This document shows, piece by piece, positions 22,602 through 36,925 of a DNA stretch of 64,000 nt; positions within the stretch are counted from its first letter, which is position 1; each line of letters begins with the position of its first letter. The DNA is from Calothrix sp. FI2-JRJ7 (GTDB lineage Bacteria; Cyanobacteriota; Cyanobacteriia; Cyanobacteriales; Nostocaceae): NCBI GenBank assembly GCA_019359675.1, contig JAHHGX010000071.1, positions 1 to 64,000 on the forward strand. Direction: 5' to 3'. The notes beneath the pieces were generated by a model that ran no database searches, had not been told where the DNA came from, and worked only from the letters and a program-made list of their open reading frames with translations. The translations under genes were made by a program, and so were the position numbers.

Positions 22602-25600
22602 ATGACCCAAAACTCTAATTCACCAATTACCAATTTACCGCTCGTTAGTTTCACAGCCGACAAAACCTTTATCCAAGAAGGAGAGGAATTTAGCTGGTTC
22701 TTCAGACTCGATCAGCCCGTACCTGCTGGTGGACTAACTCTGAACATCCCTATTTTAGATAACAATGATCCATCTCCAGGCGATATCAATTTTAATATTG
22801 CAGGTAGCACTAATGTAACGAACTTTGCAGTGGTGCGTGAAAAGCTTGCTGTGGTTGGATTCCAAGTTACCCTAGCAGAAGGCGCCACTGAAGCCAGATT
22901 AGTTAATCGGGGAGCTTTGGATAATTTGGTCGATATTGACGAGATTGCCACAGTCGCCCTAGCTCAAAGTTCAAACTACGCTGTTGACCCAACTCAAAAG
23001 CTGGTATCGTTCACAATTGACGACCCAGTGGGTACTCCGACAGAAGGTGCTGGTGGAATTCCAGATGGGACTCCATTTGTTAGCTTTACCGCAGACAAAA
23101 CGATCGTCCAAGAAGGAGAAACGTTTACCTGGAATTTTAATCTGAGTGAACCTGCTCCTGCTGGTGGGTTGATTTTGAATTTGCCGATTCTGGATAATAA
23201 CGATCCGGCTCCCGGTGATATCCAGTACAACATCGAAGGCAGCACTAACATTAGTGGCTTCGAGTTTATCGTTGACAATGGTGTCTCAATCGGCTATCGG
23301 GTGACGGTACCAGAAGGTGTAACCGAGGCAAAGCTTGTCTCGCGTGCGTTAGTGGACACAACCATAGAGTCCAATGAAATCTTCACTACAGCCTTGGCTC
23401 AAGGTGTAAACTATGCCCCCAGCCCAACAGCAAAACTGGTGCCTCTTACGATAAGTGAATTACCAATTAGCACTAATTTCGTTGTTAACAGCCTTGTAGA
23501 TGTAATTAGTGCCACAGATGGCGCCATCACTTTGCGGGAAGCAATCAACGCAGCGAACAGTCAAGCTGGACAAAACACGATTACATTCAACCTGGCATCA
23601 GGCTTTCAAATTGACTTAACTGGGCTGTTGGAAATTACTGATGACCTAATTATTAACGGTAATGGAGTAACGGTTGCAGGGAACGGTTCCTTTGATAACT
23701 TCTTCATCAAGAACGCAAATGTAATAATTAATGGATTGACCATTGCTAATGGTGAAGATGGAATCGCTATTGGAGGTGATAGTAACCTGACACTTACGAA
23801 TAGCATCTTGAGTAATAATGCAAATGATGGGATTGATATTGGCGGCAATAACAACAGTATCACGCTTTCTGGGGTAAGTGTAACTGGCAACGGCGACAAT
23901 GGTGTGGAAGCCGATGCTACAAACAGTATTATCAATATAAACAACAGTAGCTTTGTTAAAAATGGTACAGATGGCTTGAGTTTTGATGAAGGCGGTAACA
24001 ACATTGTTAACGTCAGCAGTAGTTCTTTCATCAACAATACAGGCGATGGTATCGATGTTAATTCCGGTGGTAATAGCTTAAACCTTTCCAGTGTCACCTT
24101 GGCAGGTAACGGTGAAGACGGGTTTGAAGTTGATGGCAACAACAATAAAATTAGCATTAGCAATAGCAGCCTCAACAACAATACTAACGACGGGTTCAAT
24201 ATCGATGCTGGCAGCAGCAATACGGTTAACTTTAATAGTGTTGAGCTTGCTAACAATAAGGGTGATGGTATCGATGTTGTCACGGCTAACAACAACATCA
24301 ACCTCGCTAACTTCAACGTTTCTGGTAACAGTGAAGATGGTGTTGAAATTGATGGCGGTTCTAACACCTTGACTGCAACCAACGGCAGCTTCAGCAATAA
24401 CACAGGCGATGGTGTTGATTTTAATGGCAGCAACAATATCGCCAACTTGTCTGGAATTGGTATCAGTGGTAACACTGAAGATGGGATTGAAATCAGTCCT
24501 GGTAGCAACAACAACATCTTAAACGTCAGCAACGCTGGTATTACTGCGAATACAGGTGATGGTATTGATGTCAATGGCAACAACAATGCTGTTACCGTCA
24601 CAGGTAGCAGTTTGAGTGGCAACGGAGTCGGCGCCGCACTAGAACCCGAAGACGGATTTGAAGTTGACGGCAACAACAACTCAATTAGCATCAGTAATAG
24701 CAGCCTCAACAATAACGAGAGTGATGGGTTCAATATCGATACTGGCAGTAGCAATACGGTTAACTTTAATAGTGTTGAACTTGCCAATAATAAAGGTGAT
24801 GGTATTGATATTGTCACTGCCAACAACAACGTCAGCCTCGCTAACTTCAACATTTCTGGTAACAGTGAAGATGGTGTTGAAATTGATGGTGGTTCTAACA
24901 CCTTAACTGCAAGCAACGGTAGCTTCACCAACAACAAAGGTGATGGCGTTGATTTCAATGGCAGCAACAACACCGCTAACTTGTCTTCTGTTGCTATTAC
25001 TGGTAACGGTGAAGATGGTGTTGAAATCAGCCCTGGAAGCAACAACAACACCTTAAACATCAACAACGCTGGTATTACTGCGAATACAGGTGATGGGATT
25101 GATGTTAATGGCAATAACAACAATGTTACTGTCACAGGTAGCAGTTTGAGTGGTAACGGAGTCGGCGCCGCACTAGAACCCGAAGACGGATTTGAAGTTG
25201 ACGGCAACAACAACTCAATTAGCATCAGTAATAGCAGCCTCAACAATAACGAGAGCGATGGGTTCAATATCGATACTGGCAGTAGCAATACGGTTAACTT
25301 CAGTGGTGTTGAGCTTGCCAATAATAAAGGTGATGGTATTGATATTGTCACAGCCAACAACAACGTCAGCCTCACGAACTTCAATGTTTCGGGTAACAGT
25401 GAAGATGGTATTGAACTCGATGGTGGTTTTAACACCTTGACTGCGAGCAACGGCAGCTTCAGCAATAACACAGGTGATGGTGTTGATTTTAATGGCAGCA
25501 ACAATATTGCCAACTTGTCTTCTGTTGGTATCAGTGGTAACGGTGAAGATGGTATTGAAATCAGCCCTGGAAGCAACAACAACACCTTAACTGTCACTAA

Positions 25601-26924
25601 TAGCACCGTTAGTAATAATGCAGGCGAAGCTATCGCAAATCGTGGCAATGCCAATACTGTGAACATAATTGACCAAACTACTGGCAAACTTACAACTGCA
25701 ACAGATCAAGTCGTTAGTTTCCGCTTGAAAGATGTATTTGGTTCCTTTGTCTACATCGACAATGCCAGCTTTGAAGAGCCTGTTCTTGCAGACAATACCT
25801 TTACTGTCACCCCTCCACCAGGCTGGCAGTTGTATAATCCTTTCGGTTCAATACCACAGGTTATTACTAATGAAAGTTCGACAGTAGGAGCATTCAATCC
25901 ATCTACAGACAACTACCCCAATGGAATACCAGACGGGCAAAATGTTGGCTATGCATTCCTAATAGATAAACCTGGCAGTGGCTTTGCTGGTATCGCTCAA
26001 ACTCTAGACACTGTTGTGGCTGCTAATACTCGCTACACCTTGACAGTTGGTGTAGGCAATCCTACGGGTGCAGATATTGCTACAGGCTTGGATTATGCTG
26101 GCTTTTCTGGCTATCGCGTTGAATTGCGAGCTGGTGATGAGATAGTTGCTGTTGACAACAACTCTCTAAATATAGGAGAAGGCAAGTTTGCTACTTCCAC
26201 CATTAGCTTCACTGCTGCCACAAGTGAGTCAATTGTTGGTAAAAACTTGACTATCAACCTAATTAATGAACTCAATGGCGAGGGTATTGAAGTAGACTTT
26301 GATAATGTTAGCCTCAAAGCTGAGGCTGTCACTGCATCTGCCATAACAGGCAATCAAACTCTATACGGTAGCAGTGGCACTACAACTCTTAATGGTGGTT
26401 TGGGTAATGACATTATCTTTGGCAATGGATTCTCAACCACTCTCTTTGGTCGTGATGGCAATGACCAGCTTTTTGGAGCTTCTACTGATGACTACATTGG
26501 TGGTGGCGCTGGAAATGACACTATCTACGGTAATGGTGGCAAAGATATCCTTCTTGGTGATGCTGGTGATGACGTAATTTTTGGAGGTTCTCAAACAGAT
26601 ATCATCTTCGGAGGCGCCGGCAATGATACTATCTACGGCAACGGTGGTGGTGATTTCATTGACGGCGGTACTGGTTTCAATACCATTTTCTTAGGTGCAG
26701 GTGATGCGACCGTCGCGCTTAATACTGGTGAAGGCTTTGATACTATCAACAACTTCCAACTAGGGTCAAGTCGCTTCTTCGTAGGTAGCTTGCTTAATGA
26801 CTTGAGCTTTGCTGACAGTTCGAGCGGTGTACGTATTTCTGCAGGTAATGATTTGCTTGCAGTTGTATCTAACCAAACTGCTAGTAATTTCATCAATAAT
26901 ACGGGTAAAATTTTCACTGCATAG
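22602..26924 (+). CDS. RTX beta-helix surface or secreted protein
   Basis: 1440 residues without a classical signal peptide. In order: two copies of a Calx-beta-like unit (about 12-135 and 163-285, sharing VSFTADKT-hx-hQEGE and PILDNNDP), a CSLREA-type entry segment (ITLREAINAANSQAGQNTI, about 308-327), a right-handed parallel beta-helix of Asn/Gly-rich rungs (about 330-1030) that includes three 178-residue tandem units, a jelly-roll-like domain with IDNASFEEP and VDFDNVSLKA (about 1045-1245), and C-terminal RTX Ca-binding nonapeptides (GGAGNDTIYGNGG, about 1256-1362). RTX repeats mark export by a type I system, which is not in the window. Likely an adhesin, sheath or S-layer-like protein. 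AAGGA precedes the ATG. Confidence 0.88.
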   Translation: MTQNSNSPITNLPLVSFTADKTFIQEGEEFSWFFRLDQPVPAGGLTLNIPILDNNDPSPGDINFNIAGSTNVTNFAVVREKLAVVGFQVTLAEGATEARLVNRGALDNLVDIDEIATVALAQSSNYAVDPTQKLVSFTIDDPVGTPTEGAGGIPDGTPFVSFTADKTIVQEGETFTWNFNLSEPAPAGGLILNLPILDNNDPAPGDIQYNIEGSTNISGFEFIVDNGVSIGYRVTVPEGVTEAKLVSRALVDTTIESNEIFTTALAQGVNYAPSPTAKLVPLTISELPISTNFVVNSLVDVISATDGAITLREAINAANSQAGQNTITFNLASGFQIDLTGLLEITDDLIINGNGVTVAGNGSFDNFFIKNANVIINGLTIANGEDGIAIGGDSNLTLTNSILSNNANDGIDIGGNNNSITLSGVSVTGNGDNGVEADATNSIININNSSFVKNGTDGLSFDEGGNNIVNVSSSSFINNTGDGIDVNSGGNSLNLSSVTLAGNGEDGFEVDGNNNKISISNSSLNNNTNDGFNIDAGSSNTVNFNSVELANNKGDGIDVVTANNNINLANFNVSGNSEDGVEIDGGSNTLTATNGSFSNNTGDGVDFNGSNNIANLSGIGISGNTEDGIEISPGSNNNILNVSNAGITANTGDGIDVNGNNNAVTVTGSSLSGNGVGAALEPEDGFEVDGNNNSISISNSSLNNNESDGFNIDTGSSNTVNFNSVELANNKGDGIDIVTANNNVSLANFNISGNSEDGVEIDGGSNTLTASNGSFTNNKGDGVDFNGSNNTANLSSVAITGNGEDGVEISPGSNNNTLNINNAGITANTGDGIDVNGNNNNVTVTGSSLSGNGVGAALEPEDGFEVDGNNNSISISNSSLNNNESDGFNIDTGSSNTVNFSGVELANNKGDGIDIVTANNNVSLTNFNVSGNSEDGIELDGGFNTLTASNGSFSNNTGDGVDFNGSNNIANLSSVGISGNGEDGIEISPGSNNNTLTVTNSTVSNNAGEAIANRGNANTVNIIDQTTGKLTTATDQVVSFRLKDVFGSFVYIDNASFEEPVLADNTFTVTPPPGWQLYNPFGSIPQVITNESSTVGAFNPSTDNYPNGIPDGQNVGYAFLIDKPGSGFAGIAQTLDTVVAANTRYTLTVGVGNPTGADIATGLDYAGFSGYRVELRAGDEIVAVDNNSLNIGEGKFATSTISFTAATSESIVGKNLTINLINELNGEGIEVDFDNVSLKAEAVTASAITGNQTLYGSSGTTTLNGGLGNDIIFGNGFSTTLFGRDGNDQLFGASTDDYIGGGAGNDTIYGNGGKDILLGDAGDDVIFGGSQTDIIFGGAGNDTIYGNGGGDFIDGGTGFNTIFLGAGDATVALNTGEGFDTINNFQLGSSRFFVGSLLNDLSFADSSSGVRISAGNDLLAVVSNQTASNFINNTGKIFTA
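24115..25600. repeat. Three 534-bp tandem coding repeats
   Basis: Units begin near 24115, 24649 and 25183, exactly 534 bases (178 codons) apart. Units two and three are nearly identical (compare 24658-24906 with 25192-25440), unit one is more diverged and unit three is cut short. This indicates a recent in-frame duplication of beta-helix rungs. Confidence 0.88.
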
Positions 26925-27557: not shown

Positions 27558-30500
27558 ATGTTGAGAATGATTACAACTATCCGTAAATCGCCTTGGTTAC
27601 GGGAAATATTATTTTTATTTATTTTTAGCTCTATATTTACTGCCTTTAATTTTAAAACTATTGCCCAGATAATCCCTGATAAAACATTAGGTGCCGAAAA
27701 GTCTCGCGTTACTCCTTCTGGTGTAAAAGATGTAATCGAAGGAGGCGCCATTCGCAATGATAATCTTTTTCATAGCTTTACTGAATTTAACGTTAGTAAT
27801 GGGCAGCAAGTTTATTTCGCCAACCCTGTAGGTATTAATAACATTCTTACGCGCGTTACAGGAAGCAATATCTCACGTATATTTGGCACATTAGGAGTTA
27901 ATGGTGGCGCTAACCTATTCTTAATCAATCCCAATGGTATCATATTTGGCACCAATGCGAAGTTAGATGTTGCAGGCTCTTTCACTGCCACAACTGCAAA
28001 TAGTCTTATTTTTAACAACTATGAATTTAGTGCTACTAACCCAACGGCGCCACCTTTACTCAAAATTAACGTTACACCGGGTTTACAATACGGCACCATT
28101 CAACCCTTAAGACAAATTAGCAACCAAGGTAATTTATCTGTGGGGCAAGATTTAACTTTAGTTGGTGACGTATTGAATTTGCAGGGTCAACTTGATGCAG
28201 CAAACAATTTAACTTTAATCAGTAATAATACCACAATCAGAGATAATACAACCCAACCGTTTATAGCCTCCGCTGGTGGTAATTTACTAGTTCAGGGAAA
28301 TCAAAAGCTAGATATATTCGCCCTAAATCATCCAAACAGCGGTTTTTTCTCCGGTGGAGATATAACTTTACGGTCAGCCAACCCTATATCTGGGGATGCC
28401 CATTATACCAGTAGAGGCAATTTCCTAATTACCTCCCCCCTCACAGGGGGGACTGAGGGGGGTCTAGGAGAATTATTTAGTTTATACGACCCAGTAATCA
28501 AAGCAGGTGGAGACGTTTTAATCGGTAGTTACATAGGCGCCTCTTTACATATTATTGCCGCTGGTAAAGTTGAAATTCCCCAGTTTATTAGAATTACTGG
28601 CGCCGATGCTAATCAAGGTTTACAGGAAACTATAACTTTATCAGATAATACAATTGTTGCAATTGACGGTAAAGCTAGACCAACGCTAGATATCCGTGCG
28701 GGAGTAGACCCAGCAGCTATTGGTACTCCTATCTTACCAGCAACAGGCGCCGTTGGTTTCGGCAGTCCGAGAAACTTCTCCAATACTCCTACAAGTGCAG
28801 ATATCAAAGTTGGTACTATTTTATTTGCAAACACTGCAAATACACTAATATCAGGACAAGTATTTTTAACTAATCAATACCGCCCTAACCCTAATTTACA
28901 GGGAGATATTCAAATCAACAACACTTTCGGGGCAATTGGGATTTTAAATAACGGACTAACAGGAAGTAGGTCAGTTAATATAGGCTCTAAAGGTAGTATT
29001 ACTCTTAATGGTAGTATTGATACCTCTGCCATTGCAGTTAATAACAAATATTCTGATAACGGTGGAGATGTACGGCTACTAAGTGGAGGAAACATTATCT
29101 TTAACAATGGTGCCGACCTATCTTCTTTTGGTTTATTAGGGGGAAATATTACCTTAAAAAGCAATGGTGACATTTCATTTACCAACGCTAACGTTTTAAG
29201 TAATAGCTATACCAATGTACCTAGTATAACTGGGGGTGATATTACCCTAGCAGCAAAGTCAATATTCATCAATAATGGCTCAAACTTAATAGCACGGACT
29301 TATGGACAGGGTAATGCGGGTAAAGTGACGGTTGCAGCTAGTGAGTCAGTCTTCTTAGCAGAAGATAGCAATATTAGAAGTAACGTAGAACAAGGAGCAA
29401 GTGGCAACGCTAACGGTATAGAAATAACAGCAAAAACAATAGAACTTAACAGAGGTTCAGACCTAACTTCTGAAACCTCTGGCGCTGGAAATGCTGGTAA
29501 TATTCAGCTTACTGCTTCAGGTGCAATTAAAATTGATGGGGAAAATAGCGAGCAAGACACCAGTAGTATTCGCACGCGCGTACTTGAAGGCAGCACGGGT
29601 AATTCAGGAACAATAGAAATAACTGCTGGTTCTCTTTCTGTTACTAATGGTGGTTTTATCAATGCAAGCACTCAGGGACGAGGTAATGCGGGCAATATAA
29701 ACATTAAGGTTGCATCTGACCTCAAATTAGATGGGGAGAGTATAGCAGGAGAAGCAAGTGGTATCTTTAGCGAAGTAAACTCGCAGGCAGTAGGTAATCC
29801 TGGAAGTATTCAAGTTACTGCTGGGTCGATTTCTGTATTAGGTGGCGCCCAAATCAGTTCTAGCACTGCTGGGCAAGGAAATGCAGGCAACATTACAATC
29901 AATGCTGGTAGTAATTTCTCGTTGGATGGGGGAGGGCGCCAAGGATTTTCCAGTTTGATTACTAGTGGTGTGAACAGTGGCGCAGTGGGTAATGCTGGAA
30001 ATATTGAACTGACCGCCAACTCGGTGTCTATAAAAAGTGGGACTCGTATCAATTCCAGCGTTACTGGAGAAGGAAATGCAGGCAACGTAAAAATTACTGC
30101 CAAGGGCAACATCGAATTGGATGGAGAAAACCGCTTCGGATTCGGCAGTGCTATCTCTAGTTCTGTAGACTTTGGGGCAGTGGGTAATGGTGGAAATATT
30201 GAACTAACTGCTGGTTCGCTTTCTCTAACTAAGGGAGGTAATATTCTCGCAGCTACTGGTGGAAAAGGAAGATCAAATGCAGGTAATATCACTATTAATG
30301 TATCTGGTGATGTTCGGCTAGATGGGGAAACGAGCAAAGGATTTGGCACTGGGATTGCCAGTAATGTTGCTCCTGGTGTAATTGGTGACGGTGGAGCCAT
30401 CAAGCTAACGGCAAGCAACCTCTCCCTGAGCAACGGCGGGCAAATTGCTACGGGTATTTTTGGAGAGGGCAAGGGAGGCGATATTACAATCAACCTCTCA

Positions 30501-32021
30501 GGTGCCGCGCGCGCGGATGGTGAAAATAGCCTGGGATTCACCAGTGGTATATATAGCAATATTGACATCAACCGTAATACAAATATTGATATTCTTAGAA
30601 ATACTAACGGTGTGGGTGTAGGTAGCAGCGGAAAGATCGATTTTCAAGCGGGTTCCCTTTCTCTAACCAATGGTGCAGGCATTACTGCCAATGTTCGTGG
30701 AGAGGGAAACGCAGGTAAAATTTCGGTTGTAGTTAAAGGTGATGTGTTGTTAGACAGGATTAGCCGATTTTACGATAGTGGAATTTACAGTAATGTGGAA
30801 CCTGGAGCAGTCGGTAAAGCTGAAGGAATCGAACTGACGGCAAACTCTCTTTCTGTTAGTAATGGCGCCCAACTAGCTTCTAGCGCTCTAGGTAGGGAAG
30901 GAAACGCAGGTTTTTTAAGTATTAATACTAAAGAGCTATTAGTACGAGATGGAGGACTAATAACAGTCCGAGCTGCTAACAGTCAAAATGCTGGAGATTT
31001 ACATGTTAAGGCAACCAATGTAACTCTAGATAGTAGTATAATTACTGCCCAAACCGATTCTGGCTCCGAAGGCAACATTAACCTTAATATTGCAAACACA
31101 TTAAATTTACGCAATAACTCGCGTGTATCTGCTGCTACCGTTAATGGGGAGGGCGGGCGATTGCAAGTTAATGCTAATTCTGTAAACATTAATAATAGTG
31201 CTATCACTACCGAAGCCACTGGAGAGGGTGGTATTGCAGGTGCCATAGATATTATTGGTAATAATTTACAACTAAATGATAATTCTCGTGTATTAGCTAC
31301 TACTGCTTCAGGTAACGGTGGCGATATAATTATGAACTTAGCAGATTTATTACTCTTACGTCGGGGCAGCAGTATTTCCACAACCGCAGGACAAGCTCCT
31401 GGTGGCGGCGATGGCGGTAACATTAATATAAATTCTAGATTTGTTGTTGCTGTACCAATAGAAAATAGCAATATAACTGGCAATGCGTATACTGGCAGAG
31501 GTGGGAACATTACTATTACCACCAATGGCATTTATGGATTTGAGTCCGGCGCCCAACCGAGCTTTAACAGAAGTAATATCACGGCCAGTTCTGCGCTTGG
31601 TATTAACGGTACAATCATTTTCAACATTGAAAACGTTGACCCTAGTAGGGGATTAACAGAATTACCTTCTGTCCCAACTGACCCAACCAACCAAATTGCA
31701 GCAGGCTGTCCAGCATCTGGAGATGCATCTTTTGTAGTCACAGGACGGGGAGGACTACCAGATAATCCAAAAACAACGCGGCTTGGTCAAGTAGTTTTGC
31801 AAGATTTTCGAGCTACCGCTACTGGCAGTATAGCAAGTAATGGAAATAATGAATTAGAAATTGAGAATAATCAACTACCAATTATCGAAGCTCAATCTTT
31901 AGTTCTTGACAAGCAGGGCAATGCTGAACTAGTGGCAAATATTCCGTACAATAGCCGCATTTCCTTAAATAATGACATTGATTGTCAAGGTTTAAGACGC
32001 GCGACAAAAGGTACAAAATAA
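27558..32021 (+). CDS. Filamentous-haemagglutinin-like protein (TpsA family)
   Basis: 1487-residue exoprotein of the two-partner secretion type. An N-terminal signal region (ILFLFIFSSIFTAFNFKTIA, about 15-34) is followed by the haemagglutinin N-terminal TPS domain (about 38-150): IEGGAIRNDNLFHSFTEFNV, FANPVGINNILTRVTG, IFGTLGVNGGANLFLINPNG and FIFGTNAKLDV-like strands. The rest is repetitive beta-helix with GNAGNI-x-h-TA and SLSLTNGG motifs. A Cys-containing end (AAGCPASGDAS; NDIDCQGLRR) closes the protein. TpsA proteins leave the cell through a TpsB outer-membrane pore; no tpsB is in the window. A GC-run repeat is inserted in frame at about 28436-28470. Confidence 0.9.
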   Translation: MLRMITTIRKSPWLREILFLFIFSSIFTAFNFKTIAQIIPDKTLGAEKSRVTPSGVKDVIEGGAIRNDNLFHSFTEFNVSNGQQVYFANPVGINNILTRVTGSNISRIFGTLGVNGGANLFLINPNGIIFGTNAKLDVAGSFTATTANSLIFNNYEFSATNPTAPPLLKINVTPGLQYGTIQPLRQISNQGNLSVGQDLTLVGDVLNLQGQLDAANNLTLISNNTTIRDNTTQPFIASAGGNLLVQGNQKLDIFALNHPNSGFFSGGDITLRSANPISGDAHYTSRGNFLITSPLTGGTEGGLGELFSLYDPVIKAGGDVLIGSYIGASLHIIAAGKVEIPQFIRITGADANQGLQETITLSDNTIVAIDGKARPTLDIRAGVDPAAIGTPILPATGAVGFGSPRNFSNTPTSADIKVGTILFANTANTLISGQVFLTNQYRPNPNLQGDIQINNTFGAIGILNNGLTGSRSVNIGSKGSITLNGSIDTSAIAVNNKYSDNGGDVRLLSGGNIIFNNGADLSSFGLLGGNITLKSNGDISFTNANVLSNSYTNVPSITGGDITLAAKSIFINNGSNLIARTYGQGNAGKVTVAASESVFLAEDSNIRSNVEQGASGNANGIEITAKTIELNRGSDLTSETSGAGNAGNIQLTASGAIKIDGENSEQDTSSIRTRVLEGSTGNSGTIEITAGSLSVTNGGFINASTQGRGNAGNINIKVASDLKLDGESIAGEASGIFSEVNSQAVGNPGSIQVTAGSISVLGGAQISSSTAGQGNAGNITINAGSNFSLDGGGRQGFSSLITSGVNSGAVGNAGNIELTANSVSIKSGTRINSSVTGEGNAGNVKITAKGNIELDGENRFGFGSAISSSVDFGAVGNGGNIELTAGSLSLTKGGNILAATGGKGRSNAGNITINVSGDVRLDGETSKGFGTGIASNVAPGVIGDGGAIKLTASNLSLSNGGQIATGIFGEGKGGDITINLSGAARADGENSLGFTSGIYSNIDINRNTNIDILRNTNGVGVGSSGKIDFQAGSLSLTNGAGITANVRGEGNAGKISVVVKGDVLLDRISRFYDSGIYSNVEPGAVGKAEGIELTANSLSVSNGAQLASSALGREGNAGFLSINTKELLVRDGGLITVRAANSQNAGDLHVKATNVTLDSSIITAQTDSGSEGNINLNIANTLNLRNNSRVSAATVNGEGGRLQVNANSVNINNSAITTEATGEGGIAGAIDIIGNNLQLNDNSRVLATTASGNGGDIIMNLADLLLLRRGSSISTTAGQAPGGGDGGNININSRFVVAVPIENSNITGNAYTGRGGNITITTNGIYGFESGAQPSFNRSNITASSALGINGTIIFNIENVDPSRGLTELPSVPTDPTNQIAAGCPASGDASFVVTGRGGLPDNPKTTRLGQVVLQDFRATATGSIASNGNNELEIENNQLPIIEAQSLVLDKQGNAELVANIPYNSRISLNNDIDCQGLRRATKGTK
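28436..28470. repeat. G/C-run repeat within the TpsA gene
   Basis: A C-run followed by TCACAGGGGGGACTGAGGGG, a type of element normally intergenic (a similar one is at 14279-14306), here translated as SPLTGGTEGGLGE without breaking the frame. Confidence 0.6.
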
Positions 32022-32093
32022 AATGTCGCGTTCAGTACCTGTTTATAAGGAAATTATCTAAATTTAAATTTATTGTACCTCATGAAAGGAATC

Positions 32094-32272
32094 TTACAAT
32101 ACGGCGCTCAACGGCCAACACAAATTAGCAACCAAGGTAATTTATCTGTACGGCAAGATGGCAATATTTAACCCTTGTTAGTGACGTATTGAATTTACAA
32201 GGTCAACTAAATGGTGTAAACAATTTAACTTTAAACGGTAATAATACTACAACTATCACTGATAATACAACC
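32094..32272 (+). pseudogene. Fragment of a second TpsA-like gene
   Basis: About 180 bases closely matching 28083-28256 within the intact TpsA gene, including ACAAATTAGCAACCAAGGTA and GACGTATTGAATTT. The fragment has a small deletion and stop codons (GCAATATTTAACCC) and no flanking TPS domain. It is a duplicated and decayed piece lying between tpsA and the NOS gene. Confidence 0.88.
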
Positions 32273-32350
32273 AAGGGTATATATTTACCACACAGGCGTA
32301 GAGGACACAGAGAAGAGAATAGGAAAAATTTGAAATCAATAATAAATATT

Positions 32351-32390
32351 AAAAAGTAGGAAAAGTACGAAAGGTAGGGAAAGTAAGAAA
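32351..32390. repeat. 9-base periodic array before the NOS gene
   Basis: Four consecutive 9-base units of the form AAAGTAGGA/AAAGTACGA/AAGGTAGGG/AAAGTAAGA, the third such array in the window. Preceded at 32288-32325 by a CACAGGCGTAGAGGACACAG repeat. Confidence 0.75.
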
Positions 32391-32411
32391 ATGTGTCAAC
32401 TTAGTAACTTA

Positions 32412-32431
32412 ACCTCGTTAAATAACGAGGT
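32412..32431. promoter_or_regulatory. Palindrome upstream of the NOS gene
   Basis: ACCTCGTTAAATAACGAGGT: 9-base arms around a 2-base centre, 75 bases before the ATG at 32507. The short centre and lack of a T run favour a protein-binding site over a terminator. It is the best candidate operator for the NOS gene; the binding protein is unknown. Confidence 0.5.
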
Positions 32432-32506
32432 AATAAATTAGAATATATTTACTAAACATGTGTGCTGCACAGGCAACCAAACTTCTAAGCTGCGAAATTG
32501 AATTTC

Positions 32507-35500
32507 ATGATAAATGGCAATCAGAGAACTATCCACTTAACTGAAGTGTCCGCTATCGACCTACCTACTTCAGCTAATTACAAGTACAAATGTCGCATAC
32601 AGGTGATTTCAAATGAAGGGCAACCTTTGTTACAAAAGGATTTGCTCACTCGAAATCAACCAAACTGGTTGCTTGATGTCAAGAATAAAGGAGACTGTTC
32701 GATAGCTATTACTTTGTGCTATCGCAAAGGAGATATTAGTCATCCTTGGCAAGACGCAGCAACGGTACAATTTGCTACACAGGATTGTTTGAATGGTCAG
32801 CGTAGTAGTGAGCAGGAGTGGGCTATCCCAACATGGCTTGAAGCGCCGCAGCTAAAAATAAAAACTCGCTTGACCCAAAGTAACAATGAGGAAACTGGTA
32901 GCGCAGTAACAGTGCTTGGAAATAATAAACAAAATTTTAATATTCAGAGTCGAGAGAATAAAGCTGAGGATGAATTTAAACTTCCAGAAGCTGTACCTTT
33001 AACACCGCAAGACGAAGTAATTATCAAAGATGTATGGAATAAGTTGCGTGCGTGGAAAGAATTGCAAATGGAAAAATTCTTGAAGCGTTTGCTGTTAGAG
33101 GCGCCAGAACTTGAGTATGTTTTTGGAGAAACAATCGACAGCATGAGCGATTATTTCTTCGAGTTTTTTGACTGCTGTATTCATAAACTTCAACCAGAAA
33201 CTCAGAATATAGTCGGAGAACCCTTAATGGGTGTACCTCCGGAAAAAGGAAATGGCTTAGATACGGTTGAAGATTATGGGCAGTTGTTCGCTGACCTTGG
33301 AATGCGTCCACACCATTGGCTTAAAGCACGACAAGTATGGATGTGGATGCTACCGTCAATTCCTTATTTAGAAGAATATGACCGTCAAGATTTAGAAAGG
33401 AGCGCCAACTCTGCCCTTTACCGCTTTTTCAATATTTATGTAATTTTACCAATGGTAGAAGCTCTCGAACGCTACGAGTTAGCTTTGCCTCCAGAAATGC
33501 TAGAACGCATGGCAGACTCTTGGCAAGTTTTTAGCCAAAATAAGCAAGAAATGGGAAGTGTATTTTATCAAACTTTGTTTGAAAAGTATCCCTTTGTGTT
33601 ACCCATTTTTGGACGGGCAGATATGGATTATTTGTCCTTACACTTGTTCCAATCGTTAGAATTTCTCATGCGATGCCTTAGAAGTGAGAAAACTAATGAC
33701 TTATTAATGGAATTAAGGTATTTAGGGCAGTTACACGGTAGTGTAGGAGTACCATCCTGTGCTTACCCTGCGATTTCAGATACGATGTTTGTTCTTTTTG
33801 AAAAGTACGTTCCTGATTTTACATTAGGGTTGCGGCAGGCATGGCAAACTTTGTTTAATCGTGTCACTAATATAATGAAGTTGCCCAAGTTAAATGAGGA
33901 GCGACTGCTTAAAAAAGCAAAGCAATATTTAGATATTATTGCTCATGAACAAGCTTGGGAACCAGAAGATAAAGCACGACGTTGGACAGAAATTCAAGAA
34001 GAAGTCCAAGCTACAGGTACATATACTCATACATACGAAGAACTAGCTTATGGCGCCCAATTAGCTTGGCGTAATGCTTCAAAATGTATTGGGCGGATTC
34101 AGTGGAATAATATGGTAGTGCGTGATAAACGCCATATTACCGACCCAGACGAAATGTTCACTGAATTAGTAGAGCATTTACGGCTAGCTACTAACGGTGG
34201 TAACATTCAAATTACCATGACTGCCTTTCGTCCCAAGCAACCGAAAGAAAACTGGGGACCTCGAATTTGGAATCCACAGCTAGTTCGCTACGCTGCATAC
34301 GAACAACCAGATGGTAGCATCATGGGTGACAAAGCCAATTTCGAGTTAACAAAAGCAGTTATTAAATTAGGCTGGAACCCACCGCAACCGCGCACACCTT
34401 ACGATATTCTACCGTTGGTAATTGAAGTACCGGGCATGGCACCGAAGCTTTACGAATTACCATTAGAAGAGATATTAGAAGTTGAAATCGAACACCCAAC
34501 AGTTGCCGATTTTAAATCTTTAGGTTTTCGTTGGTATGCTGTTCCTGCAATTAGTAACTTCCGAATGGATATTGGTGGCATTACCTACGGTTGCATACCC
34601 TTTAATGGTTGGTACATGGGTACTGAAATAGCGCGCGACTTTTTGGAAGATTGGCGTTATGACAAAATGGAAGAAATTGCCAAAGTTCTCAAACTGGATA
34701 CAAGTTCCGAACAAACTTTGTGGCGTGATAGAGTGGCTTTAGAACTTAATATTGCAGTATTATATTCCTTCCAAAAAGCCAAAGTGACAATGGTAGACCA
34801 CCAGTCAGCATCACGGCAATTTTTGGCACATGACTTACGCGAGAAAAAAGCAGGACGCGAATGTCCAGGTGATTTTGGTTGGGTTGTACCCCCTGCTGGA
34901 GGTAGTGCTTGTCCAGTATGGCACCATCAAATGCGCGACTTTTACCTCGAACCAGCTTATCATCATGCCGCTGACCGCTGGGCACTTGAAGACGGTATTG
35001 ACTTAGAAAAACTGATTACTACAAATAACGTAGACGAAGATAAGCAAGACCGCATATTAATTCTATATGCATCTGAAACAGGTACAGCCGAAGCCTTCGC
35101 GCGTAAAGCTGCCCGTCAGTTAGTAAAATTCCGTGCCAAGGTAATGACGCTTGATGAGTATGATACAAATACCTTAGCATCTGAAAAGCTTCTACTTATC
35201 GTTACTTCAACTTTTGGTAACGGCGAAATACCCTCAAACGGCAAAAAATTCATGCAATGGTTGAAAAAACAGCCATCTGGTTCCCTTACAGGCTTAAATT
35301 ATTCTGTATTGGGAATTGGCAGTACTGTTTATGAATACTTCTGCGCTGCTGGTATTACTTTAGATAAGGTGTTAGCAAAAGCTGGCGCCAATTCTATTGT
35401 GCCGTTACATAAAGGTGACGAAATTAAAGGACAAGCCGATACGTTCAAAAATTGGCTAGGACTAGTTTCGCGCGTATTAGGTGAGGATGTTTCTTCTGCT

Positions 35501-36925
35501 GATGCTAGTAGTACGGCGCCAAAACTTAACGTTACATTCTTGAATGCTAATGATGCTGCAAACATTACACCAATACAAGTAAGCGGTGATAAAACTATTG
35601 AAGTACCATTAGTAGCAAATCAAGAACTTCTTCAAGAAGTAATTCCAGGTAGCCGTTCAACTAGATATATCGTTTTTGACATTGCCAATACTGATTTACA
35701 ATATGAAACAGGCGACCACGTAGCTGTTTATCCTTGTAATGCAGAAGAAATAGTAAATCGTCTTTGTACTCGAATTGGAGTCACAAGCGACACTTGTTTT
35801 ACAGCTAACTACGTAACAGCCAATGGCACACCAACCGATGGCAAGGCACCCTTTACAGTACCAACAACTGTAGGTCAAGTACTTAGAGAAGAACTCGATT
35901 TAGCTTTACGCGAACCGTTTAGCGACCTGCTGTCATACATGTATACAGCAGCAGCACCCGAAGATAAACAACGCTTGGAAACTTGGTTAGAACTACTTCG
36001 ACTTCCAGACGACCATCCCGAAGGGCACGCGCTCAAGAAAAATATTACAGATAACTTCATGAGCGTTATTGACTTGTTCGATGAATTCCCAAGTGTCAAT
36101 ATTACCCTTGGCACCTTAATAGAATTACTACCCAAGCAAAAACCTCGTCTTTACTCAATTTCCTCCTCTCCTTTACTTCATCCCCAACACATTCAAATAA
36201 CCGTTGGTGTATTGCAAATCAAAACCGACGTAGGTAAAGTTCGTCAAGGACTATGTTCTAACTACCTAGCCCGATTAGAAGTTGGAGCAAAAGTTCGCAT
36301 TGGCGTGCGTACCTCTACTTTCCGTCCTCCCAGCGACCCAGATGCAGTTATGCTCATGGTCGGGCCAGGTACCGGAGTATCTCCATTAATTGCCTTCCTT
36401 CAATATCGTCAAGCATTATTGCAACAAGGACAACACTTAAGCAACGCAAGTCTGTATTTTGGTTGCCGTAACCATAGTGACTTTATTTATCAAGAACAAT
36501 TACAAACGTGGCAAAATCAAGGTGTTTTATCTGGCTTAGAGATAGCATTCTCCCGCGTCGGTGCCCAAAAAATGTACGTACAAAATCTCATGGAGCAAAA
36601 CCCAGAAAAACTTTGGCGCCAACTCTCACATCCCAAATGTCACTACTACGTTTGCGGAGATGCCAAAATGGCGGACGATGTATTTGAAGTAATGTTATCA
36701 ATAGCCAAAACTGAGGGTGGGTTAACACACATTGAAGCAGTAGACTTTTTCGACAAAATGAAACAAGAAAAGCGCTTCCATAGCGACGTTTGGGGTGTAA
36801 CACTCAACTACAAACAAGCTATCAAACAAGTGCAAAAAGACAACTACTCAAAAGCTGAAAAATGGCTCAACCGTGTGCAACAATCAGCAGAACAGGTGCC
36901 AGTTAAGGAAGTAGTAAGTGTATAA
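32507..36925 (+). CDS. nos: Nitric oxide synthase with N-terminal globin-like region
   Basis: 1472-residue single-chain NOS that should oxidise L-arginine to citrulline and NO using NADPH. Parts in order: beta-rich N-terminal region (1-160); two consecutive globin-like helical segments (about 163-325 and 330-470, the second with candidate proximal His410 in LGQLHGSVG); NOS oxygenase (about 480-840) with haem-ligand Cys527 in [13 protein letters not shown], arginine-binding Glu707 in GWYMGTEI and pterin-site [21 protein letters not shown] domain ([14 protein letters not shown], about 848; [12 protein letters not shown]); FAD domain (RLYSISSSP, about 1213; GLCSNYL); NADPH domain ([13 protein letters not shown], about 1286; [12 protein letters not shown]). 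No basic calmodulin-binding helix separates oxygenase and FMN parts. It matches the Synechococcus PCC 7335 type in size and order. ATG 32507 is preferred to TTG 32498. Confidence 0.96.

Follow-up and report, generated by a model that had tools for sequence, protein, structure and literature searches.

A syNOS-type nitric oxide synthase in Calothrix sp. FI2-JRJ7, and relatives with an EF-hand pair in the slot of the second globin

A stretch of 64,000 nucleotides from Calothrix sp. FI2-JRJ7 (the window), part of contig C71 in a genome of 8.66 Mb, was found to carry a gene for nitric oxide (NO) synthase (NOS) at positions 32507-36925 of the forward strand. The gene is real but mostly of a known type, that of the NOS of Synechococcus PCC 7335 (syNOS), and the surprising aspects sit in its relatives. 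The order C2, pseudoglobin, globin, oxygenase, flavodoxin and FNR with a tail was recovered in the window protein by end-to-end alignment and a domain map. We consider it very probable that this is a syNOS-type enzyme working by the mechanism described below. For syNOS, the available text of a cryo-electron microscopy (cryo-EM) paper (Sci Adv 2026, PMC12922734) divides the protein into a C2 domain (1-134), a pseudoglobin of eight helices that lacks haem (179-339), a globin (340-473), an oxygenase, a flavodoxin, an FNR and a two-helix tail. One globin, with Phe380 and His422 named, had been described in 2018 together with a list of NOS-bearing cyanobacteria (PMC6104048, available part). The architecture that the first-pass annotation of this DNA took for unusual is thus not new.

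The open reading frame (ORF) is intact over 1472 amino acids with no internal stop. The ORF list puts its start at TTG 32498, but ATG 32507 was preferred because it agrees with the start in the relatives. Pfam revealed NO_synthase (residues 464-825, E = 4e-152), Flavodoxin_1 (852-983), FAD_binding_1 (1029-1253) and NAD_binding_1 (1284-1392), and Cys527 and Glu707 were invariant in all 32 aligned sequences. The earlier claim of a complete NOS stands. The best PDB matches were syNOS chains (2242 bits, window residues 9-1455 against syNOS 18-1466). Locus L058 of genome G141 served as the syNOS reference sequence, because it matched PDB 9q05 over 1-1468 with 3437 bits and was identical in the alignment portion displayed. 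The window protein shares 65% identity with it overall (945 of 1453 aligned positions): 32% in C2, 25% in linker L1, 68% in the pseudoglobin (pGlb), 63% in the globin (Glb), 81% in the oxygenase (Oxy), 77% in the flavodoxin (Fld), 61% in the FNR and 76% in the tail. Besides the gene itself, the query matched one reductase-like stretch of the genome (30% identity). The N-terminal C2 domain had been overlooked in the first-pass annotation. The domains and sites are as follows.

32507..32884 (+), C2-like regulatory domain, residues 1-126; aligned with syNOS up to 134, 40/125 identical
32885..33004 (+), linker L1, residues 127-166; syNOS linker alignment, 10/40 identical
33005..33487 (+), pseudoglobin, residues 167-327, haem-free by homology; 109/161 identical to syNOS pGlb 179-339, AlphaFold2 helices, unmatched in Pfam
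33287..33289 (+), Phe261 codon, at the presumed F8 (proximal) position in the pseudoglobin; F in 30/30 rows with a letter, model helix 99-109 ending three residues later
33488..33889 (+), putative haem globin and NO dioxygenase domain, residues 328-461; Pfam Globin 353-455, 85/134 identical to syNOS Glb, profile matches to 3s1i and neuroglobins
33734..33736 (+), His410 codon, proximal haem ligand (F8); aligned with syNOS H422 and a His of haem globin 3s1i
33890..35023 (+), NOS oxygenase, residues 462-839, with Cys527 and Glu707; NO_synthase E 4e-152, 307/378 identical to syNOS
35024..35053 (+), linker L2, residues 840-849, without a calmodulin-binding segment; alignment with syNOS L2
35054..35476 (+), FMN (flavodoxin) domain, residues 850-990; Flavodoxin_1, 108/141 identical to syNOS
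35522..36790 (+), FAD/NADPH reductase, residues 1006-1428; FAD_binding_1 and NAD_binding_1, 257/422 identical to syNOS
36791..36922 (+), C-terminal tail, residues 1429-1472, a syNOS-type tail plus 15 extra residues; 22/29 identical to the syNOS tail, W1429 kept

Relatives were collected by scanning genome contigs with a C2-pGlb-Glb alignment, a scan that works through two short peptide patterns and is not exhaustive. This gave 33 loci, all cyanobacterial. A frame of at least 900 codons with the motif sought was present in 29 of them; L073 (in-frame stop), L094, L098 and L102 were left out. The alignment therefore had 32 rows (the 29 loci, the window, L053 and L058), of which L076, L087, L095 and L101 were N-terminally incomplete.

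The first-pass annotation had proposed two tandem globin-like segments, the first haem-free and the second haem-binding. The AlphaFold2 model and its Foldseek matches speak for two globin folds, and the solved syNOS has both; the same division of haem was seen in the cryo-EM structure of this orthologue (PMC12922734, available part). In the proposed check by globin hidden Markov models, Pfam Globin matched the second segment (353-455, E = 2.4e-4, 22.0 bits, exactly at the cut-off) and nothing N-terminal to it. His410, already named as the proximal ligand of the second globin, corresponds to syNOS His422 and to a His of haem globin 3s1i, and is a His in 27 of the 31 readable family members. Phe368, the counterpart of syNOS F380 (CD1), was invariant in the 31 rows with a letter. 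(Names such as F8 and CD1 follow PMC6104048 or general globin usage.) The family profile of the second globin matched 3s1i (E = 4e-13), neuroglobins (best E = 2e-10) and 1vhb (E = 3e-4).

For the first segment, a profile search of the PDB gave only syNOS below E = 0.6, and comparison of the two globin profiles gave no convincing match (probability 1.8%, E = 0.027, 58 columns). Its sequence shows no significant relationship to globins; the evidence for its putative globin fold comes from the solved orthologue and from the AlphaFold2 model. The model of residues 156-466 had a mean pLDDT of 82 and a pTM of 0.80; in a loop at model residues 81-89 the pLDDT fell below 50. Foldseek aligned the model with seven syNOS chains over 298-310 columns (TMq 0.81-0.85). 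Weaker matches, over 316-327 columns (TMq 0.40-0.43, E 5e-5 to 4e-4), were obtained with six two-globin recombinant haemoglobins; the large root mean square deviation from the latter, about 15 Å, was taken as a differing orientation of the two halves. In the model, Phe261 lies three residues before the end of a helix that stops at 264, which parallels His410 in the F helix ending at 413, and from this helix order we infer that Phe261 occupies F8 of the first globin. The first-pass annotation had seen a candidate proximal His in the second globin only. The first does have a His that never varies, H270 (in 30 of 30 rows with a letter), but in the model it opens the following helix (model residues 113-129) and does not lie at F8.

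A first segment that is an unrelated helical domain resembling a globin, or that binds haem through His269/His270, would agree with the missing Pfam match, with the profile results and with the invariance of H270. We regard this as very unlikely, because the syNOS pseudoglobin is described as eight-helical and without haem binding in the available part of PMC12922734, the model aligned with two-globin haemoglobins over both halves, if at a low TMq, and both histidines fall within the opening turn of the helix that follows instead of at F8, H269 being a His in only 11 of 30 rows. The pseudoglobin was found in every readable N-terminus of the family. Among 11 sister pairs computed, of which the two with the window sequence were mostly saturated, its dN/dS was 0.040-0.098 in seven pairs without the EF-hand insert described below and 0.07 and 0.12 in two pairs with it. 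Such low values favor a part that is needed.

Four of the 31 readable members (L088:9001-13620, L089:9001-13620, L091:2821-7440 and L093:5534-10165) had an insert of 62-63 residues after residue 406. It is an EF-hand pair (Pfam EF-hand_7, E 3e-12 to 1e-10) that replaces the segment with the proximal His, and both of its loops fit the canonical EF-hand pattern in all four. Whereas Tyr354, Phe368, His379 and His410 were kept in all 27 members without the insert, all four EF-hand members had changed Tyr354 to F, His379 to N, His410 to V or N and V415 to I. Loss of haem in them is inferred from the missing proximal ligand. An order-wide search (388 genomes, 25 matching) revealed the insert in G714, G739, G837 and G854, the last split over two contigs. 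Shared 30-mers paired G714 with L088, G837 with L093, G739 with L089 and G453 with L091, so five distinct genomes have the EF-hand form. The insert was poorly modelled in the AlphaFold2 prediction for L088 (block means of 40-57); with Foldseek the model matched syNOS, two-globin haemoglobins at E 3e-4 to 1e-3, and single globins and calmodulin only at E 0.03-0.13.

The trees of the two parts of these proteins disagreed. In the oxygenase-reductase tree, L088 and L089 stood apart from L091 and L093, which grouped with the His-type L071 (uncultured Nostoc) and L053 at 100/100. Forcing the four EF-hand members, a group picked after the insert was seen, together cost 162 log units (p-AU = 3e-33) there and 35 (P = 0.004) in the tree of C2 plus pGlb. 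In the globin tree computed without the insert, they formed one clade (100/100, branch length 0.55). L091 was 75-100% identical to L071 per 40-residue block, but in 321-441 only 45-68%, and there L088 was closer (60-85%). The simplest reading of the trees and the windowed identity suggests that the EF-hand module moved between NOS genes by recombination of the globin segment. Two independent gains with convergence retain a small residual plausibility. In the remainder of the globin, dN/dS was 0.26 and 0.57 in the two EF-hand pairs, with few changes, against 0.05-0.30 in seven other sister pairs.

On these sequence grounds, we think it fairly likely that the slot of the second globin is an exchangeable module, which would be a haem NO dioxygenase in most members read, the window protein among them, and, in at least five genomes, an EF-hand pair acting as a haem-free Ca2+ sensor. 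Recombination would then have converted an enzyme that scavenges its own NO into a pure source of NO, gated by Ca2+ through a built-in calmodulin-like element, a presumed change of function. The open-licence literature on EF-hands in cyanobacterial globin NOS yielded only the NOS of reverse domain order (PMC7400543) and no EF-hand variant of the syNOS type.

Relatives also differed at the other end of the protein. In L086:4139-9310 and L099:8977-14148, the NOS had 254 extra C-terminal residues that matched LCIB_C_CA (E = 5e-67 and 1e-65), and in G682 (L158 486-5621) an LCIB domain lay just behind the NOS (77%, tblastn) in a frame of 1727 codons. In all, three relatives outside the EF-hand group carry an LCIB-type beta-carbonic anhydrase domain at the C-terminus. 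A decayed copy in G212 (L061) was also fused to part of an LCIB domain. A fusion of LCIB with NOS was not found in the open-licence literature.

By analogy with syNOS, we expect that the window protein makes NO and that it probably also turns NO into nitrate. Electrons from NADPH would pass through FAD and FMN to the haem of the oxygenase, where L-arginine would be oxidized to citrulline and NO. A second target of the reductase would be the second globin, which, once reduced, would use O2 to turn NO into nitrate. The first globin, lacking a proximal His, would hold no haem; its role would be that of a scaffold at the dimer interface, placed between the globin and the oxygenase. With Ca2+, the C2 domain would probably act as a switch that blocks either the oxygenase or the globin. 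Established here are the order of the domains, their homology, and the conservation of ligands and contact residues; the activities, the control by tetrahydrobiopterin (BH4) and Ca2+, the haem-free first globin and the movement of C2 are carried over from syNOS. The available part of PMC12922734 describes the N-terminal C2 domain of syNOS as Ca2+-responsive, proposes that Ca2+ shifts it from oxygenase to globin, and reports that its Glb is a NO dioxygenase that converts NO to nitrate. The window protein shares H410, F368, C527, W702 and Y703 with syNOS, as well as the C2 patch (K26, K28 and R73) and the contact residues R49, W81 and R99, and both C2-Oxy salt-bridge pairs (R49/E511 and R99/E556) are present. 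Control of the calmodulin type was rejected, in line with the earlier note, which had seen no calmodulin-binding helix: the Oxy-Fld linker aligned with the 10-residue L2 of syNOS (840-849), which leaves no space for one. PTPS, a family of the BH4 pathway, was present in the genome. In the same genome, we also observed two adjacent PTPS matches in a single open frame of 300 residues (G000:C67:133297-134088).

Several points weigh against this mechanism. PTPS is no proof of BH4, as the family serves other pathways too. R99 was an Arg in only 19 of the 30 members with a letter, and the C2 domain has only 32% identity to that of syNOS. The tail lock of syNOS (K987/E1454) was not kept, since the window protein has K974 but Q1443 in place of the Glu; however, this position is Q in 30 of 32 sequences, K in one and E only in syNOS, so the lock is not general and no family-defining feature. 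According to the available part of PMC12922734, the C2 domain of syNOS itself lacks the usual Ca2+-binding Asp residues, and neither removal of C2 nor addition of Ca2+ altered the reduction rate of the globin much, which disfavors a simple two-way C2 switch.

It is also conceivable, though rather unlikely, that the protein is only a source of NO, with a second globin that is vestigial or senses O2 or NO. The Pfam match exactly at the cut-off would fit this, as would the loss of haem-pocket residues in some relatives, from which it follows that the slot can do without haem. However, the four pocket residues persist in all 27 members without the insert, syNOS Glb oxidizes NO to nitrate, and the NOS globin was the only PF00042 match in the genome (truncated globins, a separate family, were outside the search). 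A decaying or foreign remnant without function is extremely improbable. Its occurrence is patchy, with 25 of 217 genomes of the same family matching the two globins at 1e-20 (G578 in pieces only) and none of the six other listed genomes of the genus, and decayed copies exist in relatives (G212, G028 and G578). Against this, the frame of the window copy runs uninterrupted through 1472 codons, and its catalytic and contact residues are in place. It differs from the family at 16 near-invariant positions, none of them a named catalytic or contact residue; its own dN/dS was mostly not measurable because dS was saturated. Copies that are decayed or interrupted, by internal deletions, by breaks in the frame or by just one in-frame stop, were observed in L061 (G212), L060 (G028), L160 (G578), L056/L087, L073, L059/L101 and L094, and some of them may be assembly errors.

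Of the 388 genomes in the class sample, 93 matched the N-terminal query at E = 0.001, mostly through ordinary globins of about 30% identity. The whole N-terminal region was found in eight, that of the window included (G059 in three pieces), and part of it in G028. The oxygenase matched in 19: those eight, G212 with a fragment, eight whose architecture is different, and two where the match was short and weak. Spread by viruses was rejected, as 75 stretches of viral contigs matched a pattern and none was a relative; carriage on plasmids was rejected likewise, the plasmid collection giving no blastn match.

Compared with syNOS (PDB 9Q05, 9Q06, 9Q0X, 9Q0Y and 9Q15), the window protein has the same six domains in the same order, the haem ligands, the C2 patch, the salt bridges and the short L2 without a calmodulin-binding segment, but differs in overall and C2 identity, in the Q for E1454 and in the 15 additional C-terminal residues. 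It resembles the animal enzymes (nNOS, eNOS and iNOS) in its oxygenase, FMN domain and FAD/NADPH reductase with a C-terminal tail, whereas it has no calmodulin-binding linker and has an N-terminal C2, pseudoglobin and globin; its Ile682 is of the type described as bacterial (PMC6104048, available part). As in flavohaemoglobin (Hmp), a FAD/NADPH domain would reduce a globin for NO dioxygenation, but here both are parts of a NOS with the oxygenase and FMN domains in between. The EF-hand NOS of Sorangium and Microcoleus also fuses reductase and oxygenase, yet in reverse order and with a 2Fe-2S domain and EF-hands, as far as the available text of PMC7400543 describes it. This type was observed in G277 and G336, and L062:5892-9539 and L063:5097-8759 encode EF-hands, a BFD-like 2Fe-2S domain and FAD/NAD domains before the oxygenase, the order known from Microcoleus and Sorangium (PMC7400543, available part), with a Bestrophin_2 gene next in both. 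An oxygenase-only NOS was seen in L068:4384-5910, with an MFS transporter gene directly upstream (G066), a similar frame in L069 and a similar-looking neighbour frame in G127. The phrase 'cyanobacterial nitric oxide synthase' was not found in the open-licence literature.

A conserved neighbourhood was rejected. Among 273 ORFs within 6.5 kb of the NOS in 32 sources (the window, the 29 loci, L053 and L058), five families occurred in at least four sources; two kept a constant position across five Nostoc loci that are close relatives, and the other three, by appearance a response regulator, an ABC transporter and a pentapeptide-repeat-like protein, lay at scattered distances. The window had 24 sites like the NtcA consensus against 17.5 expected, a number reached by 9 of 100 shuffles; one was inside the gene (32765-32778) and none in the upstream gap 32022-32506. 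Promoter-like sites numbered 11 against 13.7 in shuffles and terminator-like sites 3 against 5.2. Scans of the window for Rfam families and tRNAs found nothing. Upstream of the NOS gene, 32094-32215 (+) holds a short, broken stretch that resembles the TPS secretion-domain gene next to it (27558-32021; two pieces with 74% and 78%, E = 4e-8). The product of 22602-26924 (+), further upstream, combines an HpiC1-like domain (E = 7.5e-49) with beta-helix and RTX-type repeats.

With the window gene, a NOS type that is structurally solved but little sampled gains a member. The family survey indicates that its pseudoglobin is strongly constrained, while the haem globin appears replaceable by an EF-hand form. 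The EF-hand relatives are natural proteins in which the need for NO scavenging, and Ca2+ control without calmodulin, could be probed.

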